From: Komagataeibacter sp. FNDCF1
GTDB taxonomy: Bacteria > Pseudomonadota > Alphaproteobacteria > Acetobacterales > Acetobacteraceae
Reading direction: 5' to 3'
Assembly (NCBI RefSeq): GCF_021295335.1
Contig: NZ_JAIWOT010000001.1
Coordinates: forward strand, 127,001 to 191,000
DNA length: 64,000 nucleotides
Numbering within the stretch: position 1 is the stretch's first letter; each line of letters starts with the position of its first letter. This document shows, one piece after another, positions 8,187-16,222 of the stretch. Made by a program: the position numbers and the translations under genes. A model generated the notes under the pieces. It worked only from the letters and a program-made list of their open reading frames with translations, had not been told where the DNA came from and searched no databases.

Positions 8187-9326
8187 ATGACGCTTACAGT
8201 GAATACCCTGCGCGAACTTGTTGCCTTCCGCAGCCTGTGCGGCGAGCCGAACGGTGACATGATCGACTGGCTGGAAACGTTTCTTGGCCGGGCTGGTGCG
8301 CGGGTCCGGCGCGTGGCGGGTGACAGGCCGGGTGCGTCCGGGCTGTTTGCATCAATCGGACCGGATGTGCCGGGCGGGATTGTCCTGTCCGCGCATTCCG
8401 ATGTGGTTCCGGTGGCGGGGCAGGCATGGTCATCGGACCCGTTTGTACTGACCGAGCGGGATGGCAGGCTGTACGGTCGCGGCACAAGCGACATGAAGGG
8501 CTTTATCGCATGCATGCTCAGCAGCGCGGCCGGTGCCGCGCGGCGGGAACTCAGGCGTCCCCTGCATCTGGCGATTTCGTATGACGAGGAACTGGGCTGC
8601 CTGGGCGTGCATTCCCTGCTCAGGGCGGTGGCGGATAGCGGCGTGGAAGTGGGGGGCTGCATCGTCGGTGAACCGACGGGCATGCGGGTGGCCGTTGCCC
8701 ACAAGGGCAAGATTGCCTTCCGCATTACCTGCCGGGGGGAAGCAGCCCATTCCGCCAATCCGTTCAGGGGTATAAGTGCCATCCGCATGGCGGCGGCCAT
8801 GGTGGGGGAACTTGACGCGCTGCAGGACCATATCCGGGATACCGAAGCGCATGACACACGTTTCGAGGTACCTTTTTCCACCGTACAGGCTGGCCTGATC
8901 GAAGGCGGTTGCGCGCTTAACATCGTACCCGATCTGTGCACCATAACAGCGGAAATGCGGCTTCTGCCGGGGCAGGATGGTGCCGCCTGTCTGTCCTGGC
9001 TGCGGCAGGCCACCCACCGCGTGGTCGGGGCGACGGGCGGCGGCACGATCAGCATCGAGGTTACGAATGCCTATCCGGGGGTTGATAACCCGCCAGACAT
9101 GGCCATCTGCTCACTGGCCTTGCACGAAGCCGGGCAGAATAGTACATGTGTCATAGATTTTGGAACGGAAGCGGGGCTGTTCAAGGAAATACTGTCCGTT
9201 CCATGCGTGATCTGTGGTCCTGGTTCAATCAGCAGGGCCCATAAGGCGGACGAATACATCACACAGTCCGAACTCGACCGGTGTGACCGCTTTCTTGAAG
9301 GTATTGTGGAAACGCTCTGCCAGTAA
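8187..9326 (+). CDS. M20-family deacylase (ArgE/DapE-type)
   Basis: Cytoplasmic zinc amidohydrolase of 379 aa related to acetylornithine deacetylase. The dinuclear metal site is recognisable: H70 and D72 in LSAHSDVVP, bridging D102 in GRGTSDMKGF, the catalytic/metal pair E134-E135 in SYDEELG, and a C-terminal His in SRAHKADEY. The dimerisation domain (about residues 175-290) begins around VAHKGKIAFRITCRGEAAHSANP. The start at 8187 follows ggagcg; a GTG and an ATG at 8154/8157 lie upstream but lack ribosome sites. A role in arginine synthesis is possible, but the island context (monooxygenase, RidA-like, DUF1028) suggests hydrolysis of an N-acyl intermediate in a catabolic route. Confidence 0.87.
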   Translation: MTLTVNTLRELVAFRSLCGEPNGDMIDWLETFLGRAGARVRRVAGDRPGASGLFASIGPDVPGGIVLSAHSDVVPVAGQAWSSDPFVLTERDGRLYGRGTSDMKGFIACMLSSAAGAARRELRRPLHLAISYDEELGCLGVHSLLRAVADSGVEVGGCIVGEPTGMRVAVAHKGKIAFRITCRGEAAHSANPFRGISAIRMAAAMVGELDALQDHIRDTEAHDTRFEVPFSTVQAGLIEGGCALNIVPDLCTITAEMRLLPGQDGAACLSWLRQATHRVVGATGGGTISIEVTNAYPGVDNPPDMAICSLALHEAGQNSTCVIDFGTEAGLFKEILSVPCVICGPGSISRAHKADEYITQSELDRCDRFLEGIVETLCQ

Positions 9327-10152: not shown

Positions 10153-10955
10153 CCCCGGTGACGGACCGCCCGGTGGCCTGTAACTACAGGCTGGCGGGGC
10201 GTCATCCGGCGGGTGAGGCAGCCGGTCCTGTGGTGCAATGGTGCGTCGTCATCAAAAATCACCCCCCATACAGCGCCTTCCGATGGGCCCGGCCGGGACG
10301 CGGTTTCACGCCTGTGTGTGGCGGCGGCCCGTGAGCGCGCCGGGTATTCCACAATGACAATCGAGATGCGTGCCATCACGATCGGATTGCACGATACCGA
10401 ACGCCTGCGGCAGGCCGGCCCTGCCGCTACAGGCGGGTCTGTCACGCTGCGGCACGAAGCCTGCCACAAGAAGGTTCGACGCCACACAGATGTTCAGGGC
10501 ACAGCATGCCCGGACGATCCGTTTTTTGTAATGACAGACCATATCCGTGCGCGGATTTCCCGGATGGACGTCAGGTAGTTCTCAAGAAATCATTTTCGAG
10601 CATGGTGCAGTAAATACCATTATGGCAACGCGCCTGATGGTGCGGGATAGAGAATGGCGGCATGCAGGTGGAGATTGATGTCCGGCCTTGACCGTATTTT
10701 GCCAATACGGCCCGTATATGCCAGGTGGTTCTGTTCGTTTTGAAATGTTTATGGATTATCCTGCCAAATGACAAAATAAAAAACAACAGTAAAAATAAAA
10801 TACAGGGAATATATTAATAATAACGGTTTATTTTTATTTATAAATTATCTATTTTTATTCAATTGCGCACGAAACCCTGTTCAGCCCAGGCTGTTCTGTC
10901 ATGGGACGGCCGAATGAACGACCGTCCCGTATCAGTAAAACAGGGAATGAAAAAA
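10153..10955. other. 803-bp intergenic region; hairpin and AT-rich promoter region, no gene supported
   Basis: Just after the DUF1028 gene an imperfect hairpin (about 10167-10200, core gcctgta/tacaggc) may terminate transcription. The middle holds overlapping open frames on both strands with no family resemblance or ribosome site, so none is called. The last 130 bp (about 10745-10860) are strongly AT-rich and probably contain the promoter of the repeat-protein gene. Confidence 0.4.
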
Positions 10956-11234
10956 ATGGCGAACCAGGGCGGAACCCATGAGCAGCACGTCAAGGCGGGC
11001 GAGCAGAGCCACAAGAACACCGGCACCACGCATGGTGACAAAGGTGAAGGCACGCACGGCGCCGGCACCCGGGGCGGCACGCATGAACAGCATGTCAAGG
11101 CCGGGCAGCAGAGCCACAAGAATACCGGCACCACGCATGATGAAAAGGGCGAGGATGCGCATGGAACCGGCACGCGTGGCGGCACCCATGAGCAGCATGT
11201 CAAGGCGGGCCAGCAGAGTCACAAGAACACCTGA
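10956..11234 (+). CDS. Small hydrophilic three-repeat protein (possible KGG/GsiB-type stress protein)
   Basis: 92-aa, very polar protein built from three copies of GGTHEQHVKAG(E/Q)QSHKNT at residues 5-22, 40-57 and 75-92. They are separated by Gly/Thr/His/Asp-rich linkers, giving an exact 35-residue (105-bp) period. The start at 10956 is chosen because aggga lies about 9 nt upstream; earlier in-frame starts would add an unrelated segment. No hydrophobic or transmembrane part. The pattern resembles glucose/acid-stress-induced hydrophilic repeat proteins (KGG, GsiB), expected to be disordered and protective, but the KGG core itself is absent, so the family assignment is tentative. It is followed by a strong hairpin and is probably monocistronic. 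Confidence 0.65.
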   Translation: MANQGGTHEQHVKAGEQSHKNTGTTHGDKGEGTHGAGTRGGTHEQHVKAGQQSHKNTGTTHDEKGEDAHGTGTRGGTHEQHVKAGQQSHKNT

Positions 11235-11250
11235 CATCGTGCCGGTCATC

Positions 11251-11282
11251 GGGGGGCGCCAGCAATACCGCTGGCGCCCCCC
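11251..11282 (+). terminator. Strong GC hairpin terminator
   Basis: A perfect 13-bp stem (ggggggcgccagc / gctggcgcccccc) with a 6-nt loop, 16 bp after the repeat-protein stop. It lacks a U tract but is the most stable hairpin noticed in the window. It separates this gene from the AAA operon. Confidence 0.75.
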
Positions 11283-11501
11283 GGAACCGGGGACCATATT
11301 GCGGCATCTTTTCTGTCATGGGTCGTGGTTACCCGCAGCATGGAAAGGGGTCCTGTGGCGGCATGCTCGGGAAATATCGCTTTTTAAAGCCACGGCCTGA
11401 TTGTGGTTTTGGTAAAAACAAGTAATTGACAGAATCCATTTACTTCAATACCGAATATAGAATATAGGGGATGCGGACTAATTGGAGTAAGCTGATTCTT
11501 T

Positions 11502-11972
11502 ATGGCGCGGCAGATATTTATTAACAAAGGCGGAGCGGGAAAGCTCCAGACAGCAACCCATACGACCGTCCGGGATGCGTCCGCCAGCAGGCAGATGTCT
11601 GTCGAGCAGCTTCGCCGTCGGCGCAGCGGCAACTATGTCGATGCGGTCAGTCGGCTTGATACGGGGGGGCCGGTTTCAGCGCCGGATATCGACGCCATCC
11701 GTGCAGCCGTGACCGCGGAATTTCCCGACGGTCCCGCCAGCTGGCCACTGGGCTGGGTTTCCAAATGTTATCTTGGTACGCCCTACGAAGTACACATCGT
11801 TGATATTTCCGGTCATATCATACAGCATTTCAAGCGTGGTGAAGCGATGCCGGGCGGCATGGAACGTGCGCGTTCGCTTGCGGCTTCCGGCCGTTATGCC
11901 GTGATCGAGGTTTTTTCCGATCGTCTTGTCGCCATCGGCAGTGACGGCACCACATCCGTTTCAATGGGCTGA
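11502..11972 (+). CDS. Unrecognised protein, first gene of the AAA+ ATPase operon
   Basis: 156 aa, no family recognised. The N-terminus (MARQIFINKGGAGKLQTATHT) and a basic patch QLRRRRSG precede a compact domain. That domain contains WPLGWVSKCYLGTPYEVHIV, HFKRGEAMPGGMERARSLA and YAVIEVFSDRLVAIGSDG, whose strand-like spacing suggests a small alpha/beta fold. There is no signal peptide or membrane segment, so it is probably cytoplasmic. It is preceded by ggagtaa and, farther upstream, a TTGACA hexamer at 11426. Only 7 bp separate it from the next gene, so the genes are probably co-transcribed and work together. Confidence 0.75.
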   Translation: MARQIFINKGGAGKLQTATHTTVRDASASRQMSVEQLRRRRSGNYVDAVSRLDTGGPVSAPDIDAIRAAVTAEFPDGPASWPLGWVSKCYLGTPYEVHIVDISGHIIQHFKRGEAMPGGMERARSLAASGRYAVIEVFSDRLVAIGSDGTTSVSMG

Positions 11973-11979
11973 TATTTCA

Positions 11980-13692
11980 ATGGCTGAACGCATTATCCAT
12001 ACTGCTGACCTGAGTGCGATCCGCAACAACCTGCGCTCCCTTGCCGAAGGCATCGAAGATGTCGGTGATCGCGTTAATCACGTTGATGATACCATAAAGA
12101 TCACCCGGCAGGAACTGTCCGACCTGCAGGCGCATTTCAACCAGTTCATTGATACCTACACCCGCGCCACGCAGGTCAGCCTGGCCGAGACGCGGCTGAT
12201 CAAGCTCCGGCAGGAGCTGGCTTCTAAATTCGGGCATTATGATGATGTGCGCCGTGCGGCGGTCGGCCTGCTGCAGGCTACCGACATCAGCGTCGTCCAT
12301 ACGGCCACGATGCGCGACATTACCGAAGAACTGATGGTGCTCACACCTGCCTACTGGCTGGCCCCGGCCTTGGTGGCCCTGGCGGCATGGCTGCGTGATG
12401 ACCAGCCCCTGGCCCAGCGCGCGCTGGGTGAAGCCCTGCGGCGGGATGATGAAAAAACCAGCCTTTTCTTTGCCCTGATCGCGCGCCGTGCCGGAAGAGG
12501 GACGGCCTGCGCCACATGGCTGGACCGCTTTCTGGGGCAGCAGGACCCCATGCAGCTGAAGCGGCAGACCATCGTGCTGATCAACGCCACCGCAGGCGGG
12601 GTTTTTGCCCCCGGTGTGCAGCAGATCTGCTACCAGCGCCTGCAGGCCTGGATTGATGAGCTCAGTGACCGGGCAGGCTTTGTGGAAGAGCAGCGCAGGC
12701 AGTGGCGCAAGGCCCTTGAATCCAAGATCCCCGAGGAGCAGCACGGCACGCGCTATCCGCATCTGGAACGGCTGTGCACGAACTGGCAGGTTCTGAACAG
12801 CCAGCTCAACCGTGCCAGCCTGAACACCGTGTTTCTTGATCACATGCGTGATATATTTGAATCACCGCTGCCTTCATCCGCCCGTCTGGCGGATGCGGTC
12901 GATGATCTGCTGACCCACCTGACCACCGATCACGATGCGGCCGAACTTCCCATGAAAATGGAGGAAGCACGGCTGGAGGCCATCATCGCGCAGGACGGCC
13001 GCGTCGATATTGCCCAGAAACATCATGACCTTGAGCGTGAGTCACTGGTGGAGGAAGTCAGCTTCACCCAGCTTCTGACGAATGCGGCCATGCATGCCGA
13101 GCGGTTCGGCGCCTCGCGCGCCTCGCAGCGCCTGGCCTTCGCGCTCTCGCGCGGCTGGGTGCATGATGCGTTTTCTGACCTGACGATTGAAACGCGGCGC
13201 AACCAGCCTGACTCAGCCCAATTGCAGATCGGCAACTGGAACGGGCAGACACATGATGGCACGGAAGAAAAAGCCCTGCAGTCCGGTCTGGAACAGCATA
13301 TCCAGAGCGAGTGCATGGCGGCGGTGGCCCAGATCAGGCTGGGTCCCAAGCATGTGATCTGCAGCATAGTGGGTGTACTGCTTCTGCTGACCATCTTCAT
13401 GGGCAATTTCATCTTTGCGCTTATCGGGGCGGCATTGCTGGCCTGGGTCTTCTTTGAATACAGGGGGCTGGAAAAAAAGCGCGACATGGTGCGGGATTCG
13501 TTCGACCGGCGCAGGCAGGCCGAAACGGCGGAACTGGGTGGATGCCTTGCGGAATATGTGGAATGGCTGCGTGATTTCGATGCACGTGACGCCGTGGCCA
13601 CGCAGACCAGCGCCTATATCGATGCCATAGCCCCGGACACCCATCTTGCGCTGCGGGAGGAAAGTTCCCGCCGCATCCTGACCAACTCCTGA
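11980..13692 (+). CDS. Unrecognised 570-aa protein with N-terminal coiled coil and C-terminal membrane hairpin
   Basis: 570 aa. Residues 1-80 are helical with heptad-like spacing (LSAIRNNLRSLAEGIEDVGDRVNHVDDTIKITRQELSDLQ). A long helical middle follows (about 100-450), then two adjacent hydrophobic stretches at about 457-491 (VICSIVGVLLLLTIFMG and NFIFALIGAALLAWVFF) form a likely membrane hairpin. About 78 charged residues follow. There is no signal peptide, so the bulk is probably cytoplasmic and anchored to the inner membrane. Start at 11980, 7 bp after the previous stop. The architecture suggests a membrane scaffold for the AAA+ ATPase encoded downstream; this is inference, and no family was recognised. 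Confidence 0.78.
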   Translation: MAERIIHTADLSAIRNNLRSLAEGIEDVGDRVNHVDDTIKITRQELSDLQAHFNQFIDTYTRATQVSLAETRLIKLRQELASKFGHYDDVRRAAVGLLQATDISVVHTATMRDITEELMVLTPAYWLAPALVALAAWLRDDQPLAQRALGEALRRDDEKTSLFFALIARRAGRGTACATWLDRFLGQQDPMQLKRQTIVLINATAGGVFAPGVQQICYQRLQAWIDELSDRAGFVEEQRRQWRKALESKIPEEQHGTRYPHLERLCTNWQVLNSQLNRASLNTVFLDHMRDIFESPLPSSARLADAVDDLLTHLTTDHDAAELPMKMEEARLEAIIAQDGRVDIAQKHHDLERESLVEEVSFTQLLTNAAMHAERFGASRASQRLAFALSRGWVHDAFSDLTIETRRNQPDSAQLQIGNWNGQTHDGTEEKALQSGLEQHIQSECMAAVAQIRLGPKHVICSIVGVLLLLTIFMGNFIFALIGAALLAWVFFEYRGLEKKRDMVRDSFDRRRQAETAELGGCLAEYVEWLRDFDARDAVATQTSAYIDAIAPDTHLALREESSRRILTNS

Positions 13693-13712
13693 ACCAGAGG
13701 GAAGCCGCTGCC

Positions 13713-13904
13713 ATGACCCGCGATGTTTTCATCCCCCGCGCCGGAACGCCCCCCACGGTATCGACACTGGCCCCCGATACGTCTACTCCCGCTGCTCCCG
13801 CTCAGGCGCCCACGGGTAACGGTGACGCACCGCCTGACCCGCTGGCAGGGGCTTTTCCCGCATGGGATCTGGTACCTGCCACCCAGTTCGTACGGCGGCG
13901 ATAG
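13713..13904 (+). CDS. Small Pro/Thr-rich protein with WDLVP C-terminal motif
   Basis: 63-aa protein, preceded by agaggga and ending 2 bp before the next start, which supports it being a real translated gene. The middle is Pro/Ala/Thr-rich and probably disordered (TPPTVSTLAPDTSTPAAPAQ). The C-terminus ends in AWDLVPATQFVRRR, which looks like a short linear binding motif. No known family. In this operon it might act as an adaptor between the membrane protein and its partners; that role is inference only. Confidence 0.55.
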   Translation: MTRDVFIPRAGTPPTVSTLAPDTSTPAAPAQAPTGNGDAPPDPLAGAFPAWDLVPATQFVRRR

Positions 13905-13906
13905 GC

Positions 13907-14467
13907 ATGTTCGGACTATGGGGCAGGCGCGCTGCCAGGAATGGTTCCGATACAGACGGCGCACCTGAGACCTATGCCGAATGGAGCGCATGGTTCGAAC
14001 GCTTTGAACGCGGCGGGGAAGATGACGTGCTGCTTGAACTTGCCAGCCGGGGCAAGGTCAACTGGTCCAGCGGCATGGCGACCAGCTTTGCCACCCGTGC
14101 GGCCAGTACGCTCCATGCACGCATGGAGGCCATCCGGCTCATGCTGCAGAAGCATCTTGGCACGGGGCGGGACGAAGGTGACCTTGGTCGCGCCGTGGTG
14201 AATGCCCGTCGTGCCTTTGCGCAGCTGTCACGCTATGCCGCGTTACCATGCTGGCCCGATCCGCTGCCCGGGCAGCTTGCCGACATGATCAGCCAGACGA
14301 CCAGGGCCATCCAGCAAAGCCTGCTTGAAAGTGCCGCGACCGACCGCACCGGCCGCCTGGCCAAGATGCTGCGCGACAATCCGGTCGACCGTGAGGTGGC
14401 GCCTGTGGCCCCGATGGCGGAACATGGCCCCGCGTCACCTCCATCCGGTCGCCGCATCCTGCTCTGA
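13907..14467 (+). CDS. Unrecognised helical protein, fourth gene of the AAA+ operon
   Basis: 186 aa. The start at 13907 (MFGLWGRRAARNG) lies 2 bp after the previous stop. The body is mostly helical (TYAEWSAWFERFERGG, AASTLHARMEAIRLMLQKHL, QLADMISQTTRAIQQSLLES) with no signal peptide or membrane segment. Its stop TGA directly abuts the GTG start of the ATPase gene, indicating translational coupling. No family recognised; a stoichiometric partner of the ATPase is the simplest guess. Confidence 0.72.
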   Translation: MFGLWGRRAARNGSDTDGAPETYAEWSAWFERFERGGEDDVLLELASRGKVNWSSGMATSFATRAASTLHARMEAIRLMLQKHLGTGRDEGDLGRAVVNARRAFAQLSRYAALPCWPDPLPGQLADMISQTTRAIQQSLLESAATDRTGRLAKMLRDNPVDREVAPVAPMAEHGPASPPSGRRILL

Positions 14468-16033
14468 GTGAACGAGGCCATAGTGAATACCAACGAATTT
14501 CTCGATGCTTTCGAACGGACCTTCAAGGCCCGTGTTCCCTTCATTCTTGTCCAGACAACGGAACGCAGCCGTGCGGTCGAACTGATCCGTGACGTATGCG
14601 CGCGGCAGAGTGTCACGGCCTATGTCCATACCCTGTCGAAGGGCACGCTGGATATTACGACCAACCGCGTGACCAACGAGGACCGTTCAGTCATCGGTGC
14701 CGTGGATTTTGCCGCCCAGCAGATGATGCAGCGCCAGCACCTGACTTTCGTGCTGACCGAACTTGATGATGTGGACACCGACAGCGCATTCGCACGCCAG
14801 CTGCTGGACACCGTTATCCTGGCTTCGGAAAAGGGCGGGACGATCGTCGCGGTCACGACCAAGACGATATGGAGCCAGGTGCAGCGCCTTGGCGTGTCGC
14901 TCATGCTTTCGCCGCCGGATCAGGACGAGACCTATATCAACATCTCCCGCCAGATCGATGATTACCGCAGCATCATGCCCATAGAATGGGATGATGCCGA
15001 CATGCGGCGCGCCGCCACGATCCTGGGTGGCGTGACCAAGATCGAAGCGGAAAACATCATCGCGATGATGGCCGCGCGTGGCAGTATCCGCAAAAGCGAT
15101 TTCCCCGAGCTCATGCGCGCGAAGGACAGTGTCTTTTCCGATGTGTCGGGCATTGAGCGGGTCGCCCTGCGTCCCGAGACCCTCAACATGGGTGGCCTGA
15201 GCGGGCTGCAGACGTGGCTGCAGCGCAAGCGCCCGCTGCTTACAGCCGACCTGCGCGAACGTGTGATCCGGCCGCCGCGTGGTGTGCTGCTGGTGGGCGT
15301 GCCGGGCTGTGGCAAGTCTCTGTCCGCCAAGACGATCGCGGCGCGGTTTGAAATTCCGCTTTACCGGCTGGATCTTGCCAATCTCATGGGGATGTACGTG
15401 GGCCAGAGCGAGGGACGCCTGAAGGAAGCCCTTGAGGCCGCCGACCGTGTGGCCCCCTGTGTGTTGTGGATTGACGAGATTGAGAAGGGCCTGGCCGCCG
15501 GTGGATCGGACTCATCGGGCGTGACCACGCGTATGATCGGGCAGTTCCTGTTCTGGCTTCAGGAATCACAGGCACGTGTTTTTGTGGTCGCAACTGCCAA
15601 TGATGTCTCTAAGCTGCCGCCCGAACTGTTGCGGCGGGGCCGGTTCGATGAACTGTTCTTCGTTGACCTGCCTGGCAGCGATGAGCGGCGCGAAATCATT
15701 ACCCTGTATGTGGAACGGGGCAAGCTGCTGCCACTGGATGCGGGGCTGCTGGAGGAACTGGTCGAACTGTCGGACGGGTTTGCCGGTGCGGACCTGGAAG
15801 CCGCCGTGCGCGAAGTGGTGGAGGAGGCTTTCCTGAACGGGGATGGCGCGGTCACGGCGGATCTCTACCGATCAAGCTTCCAGAACATCGTCCCGCTTTC
15901 GCGCACCAGCCCGGAGCAGATCGAGGCAATTCGCGCATGGGGCCGCGAGCGCGCGGTGCCTGCTTCTGGCCAGCCGATCGGGGATAATGCATCTTCTACC
16001 GCGCCCATGCGCCGGGCGGTACTGTTGGGATAA
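14468..16033 (+). CDS. AAA+ ATPase, Ycf46-like
   Basis: 521 aa. The N-terminal half (about 1-225) is a degenerate nucleotide-binding-like domain beginning with [20 protein letters not shown]. The C-terminal half is a classical AAA module: Walker A GVPGCGKS at 277-284, Walker B VLWIDEIE at 332-339, sensor-1 Asn at 378 (VVATAND), arginine-finger region LLRRGRFDE at 388-396, and a helical lid ending near 480. This two-part layout matches Ycf46-type ATPases of cyanobacteria and plastids rather than FtsH (no protease domain, no transmembrane segment). Start GTG at 14468 abuts the upstream stop; a GTG at 14483 after gagg is an alternative. Last gene of the operon; it probably remodels a complex formed with the upstream proteins. 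Confidence 0.88.
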
Positions 16034-16034
16034 C

Positions 16035-16074
16035 GGGCCACGCCGTTGCGTGCAGTCACGGCACGCGGCGGCCC
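16035..16074 (+). terminator. Possible terminator after AAA operon
   Basis: Imperfect GC-rich inverted repeat (gggccacgccgttgcgtgc ... gcacgcggcggcccc) starting immediately after the ATPase stop. There is no U tract. It is assigned by position and stem potential. Confidence 0.4.
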
Positions 16075-16222
16075 CCTGACCCTTGGGCAGATGTGCCGCC
16101 ATGGCAGAAAGATGGAGTAAGCATTCCATGCCGCCATGCGGGAATACGTAAGAAGGCAGGCATTTCCTTAACAGGGGCAGGTGGCCGTCAAAGACGTTAT
16201 AACCCGTGCAATGAAAACGATG

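Follow-up and report, generated by a model that had tools for sequence, protein, structure and literature searches.

A rare, patchily spread five-gene unit with a tandem AAA+ ATPase in Komagataeibacter sp. FNDCF1, a possible membrane-linked machine of defence or conflict

The 64,000-nucleotide stretch of Komagataeibacter sp. FNDCF1 analysed here (contig NZ_JAIWOT010000001.1, positions 127,001 to 191,000; hereafter the window) carries a compact unit of five genes, P1 to P5, the last of which encodes a tandem AAA+ ATPase. As far as searched, these genes form one rare, patchily spread system, which is frequently carried on mobile DNA and whose proteins bear similar short tails at their ends. Our tentative reading, to which we give somewhat less than an even chance, is a horizontally moved, membrane-tethered and tail-docked AAA+ remodelling machine of five proteins, probably serving conflict or defence.

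All five genes (window 11502-16033) are co-directional and separated by 7, 20, 2, and 0 bp, as an earlier note on this DNA had described, and the unit is present in a single copy in the genome. The GTG codon at 14483, from which the Komagataeibacter nataicola copy is annotated, is more likely the true start of P5; this would shorten the protein to 516 amino acids (aa) and give a gap of 15 bp. Comparison of the window with K. nataicola (L004) yielded the following ratios of non-synonymous to synonymous substitution rates (dN/dS): 0.11 (P1); 0.13 (P2); 0.12 (P3, for which dS is saturated at 2.2); 0.26 (P4); and 0.035 (P5). Third codon positions account for most changes in four of the genes and for 56 of 115 in P4. 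Purifying selection acts on all five genes and therefore even the 63-aa open reading frame (ORF) of P3 is most likely a gene.

The view that these genes behave as one unit also held: DNA similarity (82% identity) to a contig from G005, a different genome of the genus, is confined to window 11480-16031 and stops at both borders of the unit. This is better evidence than the hairpins, which the same note had placed on both sides. The upstream one (11249-11284), located after the preceding gene, is well beyond chance (z-score -5.9; 0 of 200 shuffles as good), whereas the downstream one (16035-16075) is within it (z-score -1.3; 22 of 200 shuffles). The hairpins were accordingly rejected as unit borders. 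A terminator scan found 3 sites, against 3.9 expected, and none of them immediately outside the unit. The upstream hairpin is very stable, has no T run, and follows a small repeat-built protein gene (10863-11234) without a Pfam match, which is presumably KGG-like.

Eight distinct loci carry all five families (Table 1). They belong to Alpha- and Betaproteobacteria, Fusobacterium, a streptococcal satellite-phage record, and two viral-collection contigs, and the lowest identities to the window proteins are 33% (P2) and 50% (P5). Conservation of the set in order, across the Acetobacteraceae and other phyla, had been raised in the earlier note. The set is indeed kept across phyla, with its genes in one of two orders; conservation across the Acetobacteraceae was rejected, P1 and P2 both matching the same 2 of 299 genomes of this family.

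Searches with separate families led to the same records. Among 72,556 plasmid records, P1, P2, and P4 all single out the same four; P3, too short for a distant search, matches two plasmid records, each of which carries the whole set. Of 50,697 phage records, P1 matches only one, and it is also the only one matched by P2. DNA patterns, made by hand for P5, P2, and P1, return the same two viral-collection contigs, while searches of this collection with back-translated P2 peptides gave no relative. One scan of a genome collection, made with window P2 peptides, reaches close relatives only. In separate genome samples, P2 was found in two of the 60 genomes in the relatives set, the window's own included, both being members of the genus (2 of 19), and in 1 of 385 genomes of the class; P1 and P2 were found in 1 of 398 genomes of the phylum. 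In the class and phylum sets, the only match was the window's own genome. It is this agreement between families, together with the low counts, that defines one rare, patchy system. Occurrence of the families apart from each other, which would speak against a co-inherited system, was looked for in the plasmid, phage, family-genome, and viral collections, and it was the same records that were matched.

In the draft genome of Acetobacter persici, P2 (L005 8001-9709) is broken by a frameshift near position 8630, due to either a sequencing error or a real break. The P5 pattern also returned a contig with phage-tail-like genes (L013), in which 64 encoded residues (8438-8617) resemble the ATPase C-terminus and the rest of the system is absent; we read it as a putative remnant of P5 alone.

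The ATPase P5 matches the AAA family of Pfam (E-value 4.3e-31) only at residues 273-400. It also matches the CDC48 and FtsH models of NCBIfam, below their cut-offs, and, among solved structures compared by sequence, chains of CDC48/VCP-type ATPases. Over nearly its full length (residues 4-496 of 516), P5 belongs in phrog_8638 (E-value 5.4e-95), which we take to be the Ycf46 type. The unit's own ATPases are 50-95% identical to window P5; the plasmid ATPases matched by P5 are about 30% identical. In the C-terminal half, the residues presumed to form Walker A, Walker B, the sensor, and the arginine finger are invariant among four aligned ATPases. Walker A is absent from the N-terminal half, which looks like an inactive AAA domain. 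The description of P5 as a two-part AAA+ ATPase with these motifs intact is thus borne out for its C-terminal half. The protein ends with the tail RRAVLLG.

P1 to P4 gave no match beyond chance in Pfam, NCBIfam, PADLOC, or PHROGs (best value 0.017), in agreement with the earlier description of four unrecognised families beside a single recognisable ATPase. For P1, P2, and P4, seven homologues apiece were compared with Pfam, with best values of 0.053, 0.0054, and 0.016, respectively, each in one homologue. A sequence comparison with solved structures returned nothing for P1 and P2 and only chance-level matches for P4 (best 0.2).

P1 consists of the tail MARQIFI, a variable linker of approximately 30 residues, and a small domain that combines helices with a beta-alpha-beta part. 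Its AlphaFold2 model has a mean predicted local distance difference test (pLDDT) score of 73.7, with residues 41-150 mostly at 71-90, and no fold match at an E-value of 0.001 or better. P1 was rejected as a relative of DUF1257, since hhalign gave a probability of 0.5% against nine proteins in the DUF1257 position. P2 is composed of a long N-terminal helix, a helical middle, and a C-terminal hydrophobic hairpin (residues ~452-500) between long helices, and ends with SRRILTNS. The hairpin, which had been described as a membrane hairpin, is present by hydropathy in all seven intact homologues. The coiled-coil front ascribed to P2 is represented by a predicted long helix (residues 11-84), at low confidence. 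The P2 model as a whole is poor (mean pLDDT 55.9), and its lack of a fold match at an E-value of 0.001 or better therefore says little. P3 is Pro-rich, likely disordered, starts with MTRDVFI, and has a conserved P-x-W-[DN]-[LI]-x-P ... RR near its C-terminus. P4 has a conserved domain, a variable linker, and the C-terminal tail GRRILL.

In the proposed machine, P5 would be the ring-forming motor, an ATPase of the CDC48/FtsH-like AAA clade, and P2 would provide both the membrane anchor, via its hydrophobic hairpin, and a helical scaffold. P3 and P4 would be adaptors, while P1, a small domain, may serve as a sensor or bind substrates. The subunits would dock at a common site through their short tails on flexible linkers, and ATP hydrolysis would assemble or dismantle the complex. 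It would most likely serve in conflicts among mobile elements, phages, and hosts because the system is rare, patchy, and mobile-carried, with an intact set across phyla.

A CDC48/FtsH-like ATPase and the hydrophobic hairpin of P2 would also suit a membrane stress or protein quality-control chaperone complex, spread horizontally as useful in harsh niches, and one viral-collection contig (L012) has zinc-ribbon and DnaJ-domain proteins as neighbours of the unit. We consider this unlikely. The system is very rare even in close relatives, and a rare, patchy, often plasmid-borne distribution would suit a role in conflict better than a housekeeping role in stress.

Table 1. Genes of the unit, its DNA shared within the genus, and the eight loci with all five families
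Feature	Location or carrier	Strand	Description
P1	11502..11972	+	156 aa ORF
P2	11980..13692	+	570 aa ORF
P3	13713..13904	+	63 aa ORF
P4	13907..14467	+	186 aa ORF
P5, tandem AAA+ ATPase	14468..16033	+	521 aa ORF, GTG start
DNA unit common to window and G005 contig	11480..16031	+	82% identity, stops at both borders
Window locus	Komagataeibacter		order 1-2-3-4-5
L004	K. nataicola; near copies L003, L008, L009		order 1-2-3-4-5
L005	Acetobacter persici; P2 split by frameshift		order 1-2-3-4-5
L006	Comamonas antarctica plasmid		order 1-2-3-4-5
L007	Fusobacterium vincentii, NZ_CP084075.1		order 2-3-4-5-1
L010	Streptococcus satellite phage Javan368		order 2-3-4-5-1
L011	viral-collection contig		order 2-3-4-5-1
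L012	viral-collection contig		order 1-2-3-4-5

The signature of the tails is Arg followed by hydrophobic residues, at either end of the protein, and a variable linker separates the tail from the conserved part in P1, P4, and P5. Across the loci, P1 starts with MARQIFI, MVRQIFI, MARSILG, MPRPILG, MPRPML, or MPKIML. P2 ends at or near RRIL, RRVMV, RTVMA, RKIKI, RTIRV, or RKII, and P5 ends with RRAVLLG, RRQVLG, RRSVLV, RKVLV, RKVLL, or RKLLV. P3 starts with MTRDVFI or MNRTIIP in the window, L004, L005, and L006, and with MPTRPIL in L012; P4 ends with GRRILL or RRNILI in these same five loci. Neither the P3 start nor the P4 end is found in L007, L010, and L011.

Judged by eye, the ATPase carries its tail in all eight loci; the regular expression R-x-φ-x-φ (φ, hydrophobic) recognises it in seven. 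A loose expression, applied to either end, matches five of five proteins in the window, L004, L006, and L012, and four of four in L005, whose split P2 was left out of all tail counts. A stricter one matches as follows: 5/5 (window and L012); 4/5 (L004 and L006); 4/4 (L005); 2/5 (L010 and L011); and 0/5 (L007). The background, composed of mechanical ORFs instead of annotated genes, was 22 of 227 for the loose and 6 of 227 for the stricter expression; for R-x-φ-x-φ it was 2 of 144 at the C-end and 5 of 144 at the N-end.

Similar tails occur beyond the unit. R-x-φ-x-φ was found at the C-end of 5 of 13 distant Ycf46-type plasmid ATPases and of 7 of 73 distant neighbours. One or two neighbours have the same kind of tail in four of these five ATPase clusters (L019, L024, L028, and L029). 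In several distant clusters the tails are matched between ATPase and neighbours, and they differ from cluster to cluster. The distant loci were 14 of 40 listed rows (of 1,724 records), hand-picked for diversity and coverage, with neighbours hand-picked near the ATPase; L030, a near copy of L019, was left out of the R-x-φ-x-φ counts. In L019 and L030, both Vibrio plasmids, two different proteins end with KNKRKVILD and the ATPase ends with GRKVSV.

Instead of being docking tags, the tails could mark the proteins for degradation by a host protease such as ClpXP, which would hold them low until needed. Basic-plus-hydrophobic tails at either end resemble what we take to be the N- and C-motifs of ClpX, and variable linkers set them apart in P1 and P4. 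The presence of a tail on the ATPase itself, and matched tails that are specific to a cluster, would however fit a cluster-specific docking site better, which makes degradation signals quite improbable. Docking on a larger scale can be envisaged as well. Ycf46-type AAA+ machines may use a shared terminal code, with cluster-specific R-x-hydrophobic-x-hydrophobic tails docking ATPase and partners on one site; the five-gene set would then be its fullest case, a mobile membrane-linked immune machine. We regard this generalisation as rather doubtful.

The carriers of the unit include small and large plasmids, the satellite-phage record L010, and a contig with recombinase-like genes, as read from its sequence. 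Such carriers could profit from a machine that aids their own maintenance or transfer by remodelling replication, partition, conjugation, or envelope proteins. Some distant plasmid ATPase clusters share similar tails with their neighbours, as would suit such an aid, and 1,020 of the 1,724 plasmid records matching P5 are typed conjugative, a share of little weight because only 19 records match over at least 80% of P5. In contrast, all four plasmid records that carry the unit are typed non-mobilizable, and no transfer gene was noticed beside it in the annotated loci, in a search that was not systematic. The window copy, moreover, lies in a chromosome-sized contig among unrelated genes. An aid of this kind is thus a rather unlikely explanation.

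Several observations weigh against a tail-docked machine of conflict or defence. P1 to P4 have no recognisable effector domain, and the PADLOC matches are limited to AAA models on P5 and one of chance level on P2. The window copy resides in a chromosome-sized contig, and the five window proteins scanned on its flanks include no defence gene and form no defence island. In the satellite record L010, the operon follows a fragment of a second integrase and lies outside the part common to the nearest satellite. Its status as cargo is therefore uncertain, and its position points to a presumed integration site rather than to proven satellite cargo.

The tails themselves are unevenly represented. The loose expression matches only 3/5 proteins in L010 and L011 and 1/5 in L007. 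R-x-φ-x-φ is found in 4/5 (window and L004), 4/4 (L005), 2/5 (L006, L010, L011, and L012), and 1/5 (L007). In a permutation test of tail similarity, from which L030 and the near copies of the window, L004 and L005, were left out, p was below 0.05 in 4 of 19 clusters (L006, L023, L024, and L028) and 0.08 in the window; this test is conservative because its foreign set includes tails of other clusters. All expressions were devised after inspection of the tails. The common tails are, for these reasons, a lead and not proof of docking.

Three known systems were considered for comparison. FtsH ternary systems are described as including a protein in which an inactive AAA domain precedes an active one, several helical proteins that do not occur in other settings, a vWA and MoxR core, and a complex variant with E1, E2, and JAB (Kaur et al., 2020, eLife 9:e52696, PMC7159879). 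The unit resembles them in its several helical proteins peculiar to the system, and it may share the tandem as well, the N-terminal half of P5 being a putative inactive AAA domain. It differs from them in its lack of the vWA and MoxR core, neither of which was found among the five proteins or in a scan of five flanking window proteins. The scan for E1, E2, and JAB, which covered the unit, its scanned window neighbours, and L012, detected none of these among the window proteins; relatives of E2 and JAB-ThiF adjoin the unit in L012.

IetA models match the active AAA domain of P5 (1.2e-22 in PADLOC and 7.7e-19 in NCBIfam). Its score, however, is 68.1 bits against the NCBIfam cut-off of 510, and none of the five proteins matches the IetS protease of IetAS. 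With the clusters of Ycf46, DUF1257, and DUF2997, the unit shares the full-length ATPase family, P5 belonging to phrog_8638, which we equate with Ycf46, but no protein of the unit has a Pfam match to DUF1257 or DUF2997. The unit may work like any of these three systems and has the defining features of none. No description of the five-gene set was found in the literature, which was searched at the level of listings and abstract openings, with subscription papers mostly outside the coverage.

The neighbours of the unit in the window encode an M20 peptidase, a DUF1028 protein, the above repeat protein, a DUF72 protein, and an MCRA-family protein. A clean empty site was not found: among the matches listed, the flanks are not adjacent in the other 18 genomes of the genus. 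The surroundings of the unit in L012 are richer. Zinc-ribbon proteins, a DnaJ-beta-helix protein, a prokaryotic E2 (PF14462), and a JAB-ThiF protein (JAB match below the cut-off) are encoded 3' of the unit on the same strand, a HerA-like ATPase is encoded upstream, and P3 is fused to a zinc ribbon. Taken with L014 and L015, this is a largely co-directional stretch of HerA-like, zinc-ribbon, DnaJ-beta-helix, Prok-E2_E, and JAB-ThiF genes around the unit, which may constitute a separate, larger system of conflict.

The element of L011 (L016) has a pair of DUF2201 (VWA-like) and AAA_5 genes about 6 kb from the unit, on the opposite strand. The 2.1-Mb Fusobacterium record NZ_CP084075.1 (L007) is labelled a plasmid; it is probably a chromosome, since 22 tRNA genes occur in the 17.7-kb stretch that was read. 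In an Exiguobacterium plasmid (L026 296-8367), an AAA/McrC pair and two unassigned proteins are encoded upstream of a related ATPase, and the neighbourhood may be one of defence.

Ycf46-type ATPases are a class with poorly known roles. The unit described here links four unassigned protein families with a single AAA+ motor, occurs as a cassette across phyla, and may represent an unnamed membrane-linked machine of defence or conflict. If its tails are docking tags, they would offer a simple handle for predicting the partners of Ycf46-type ATPases and would make the function of these ATPases directly testable by tail deletion.

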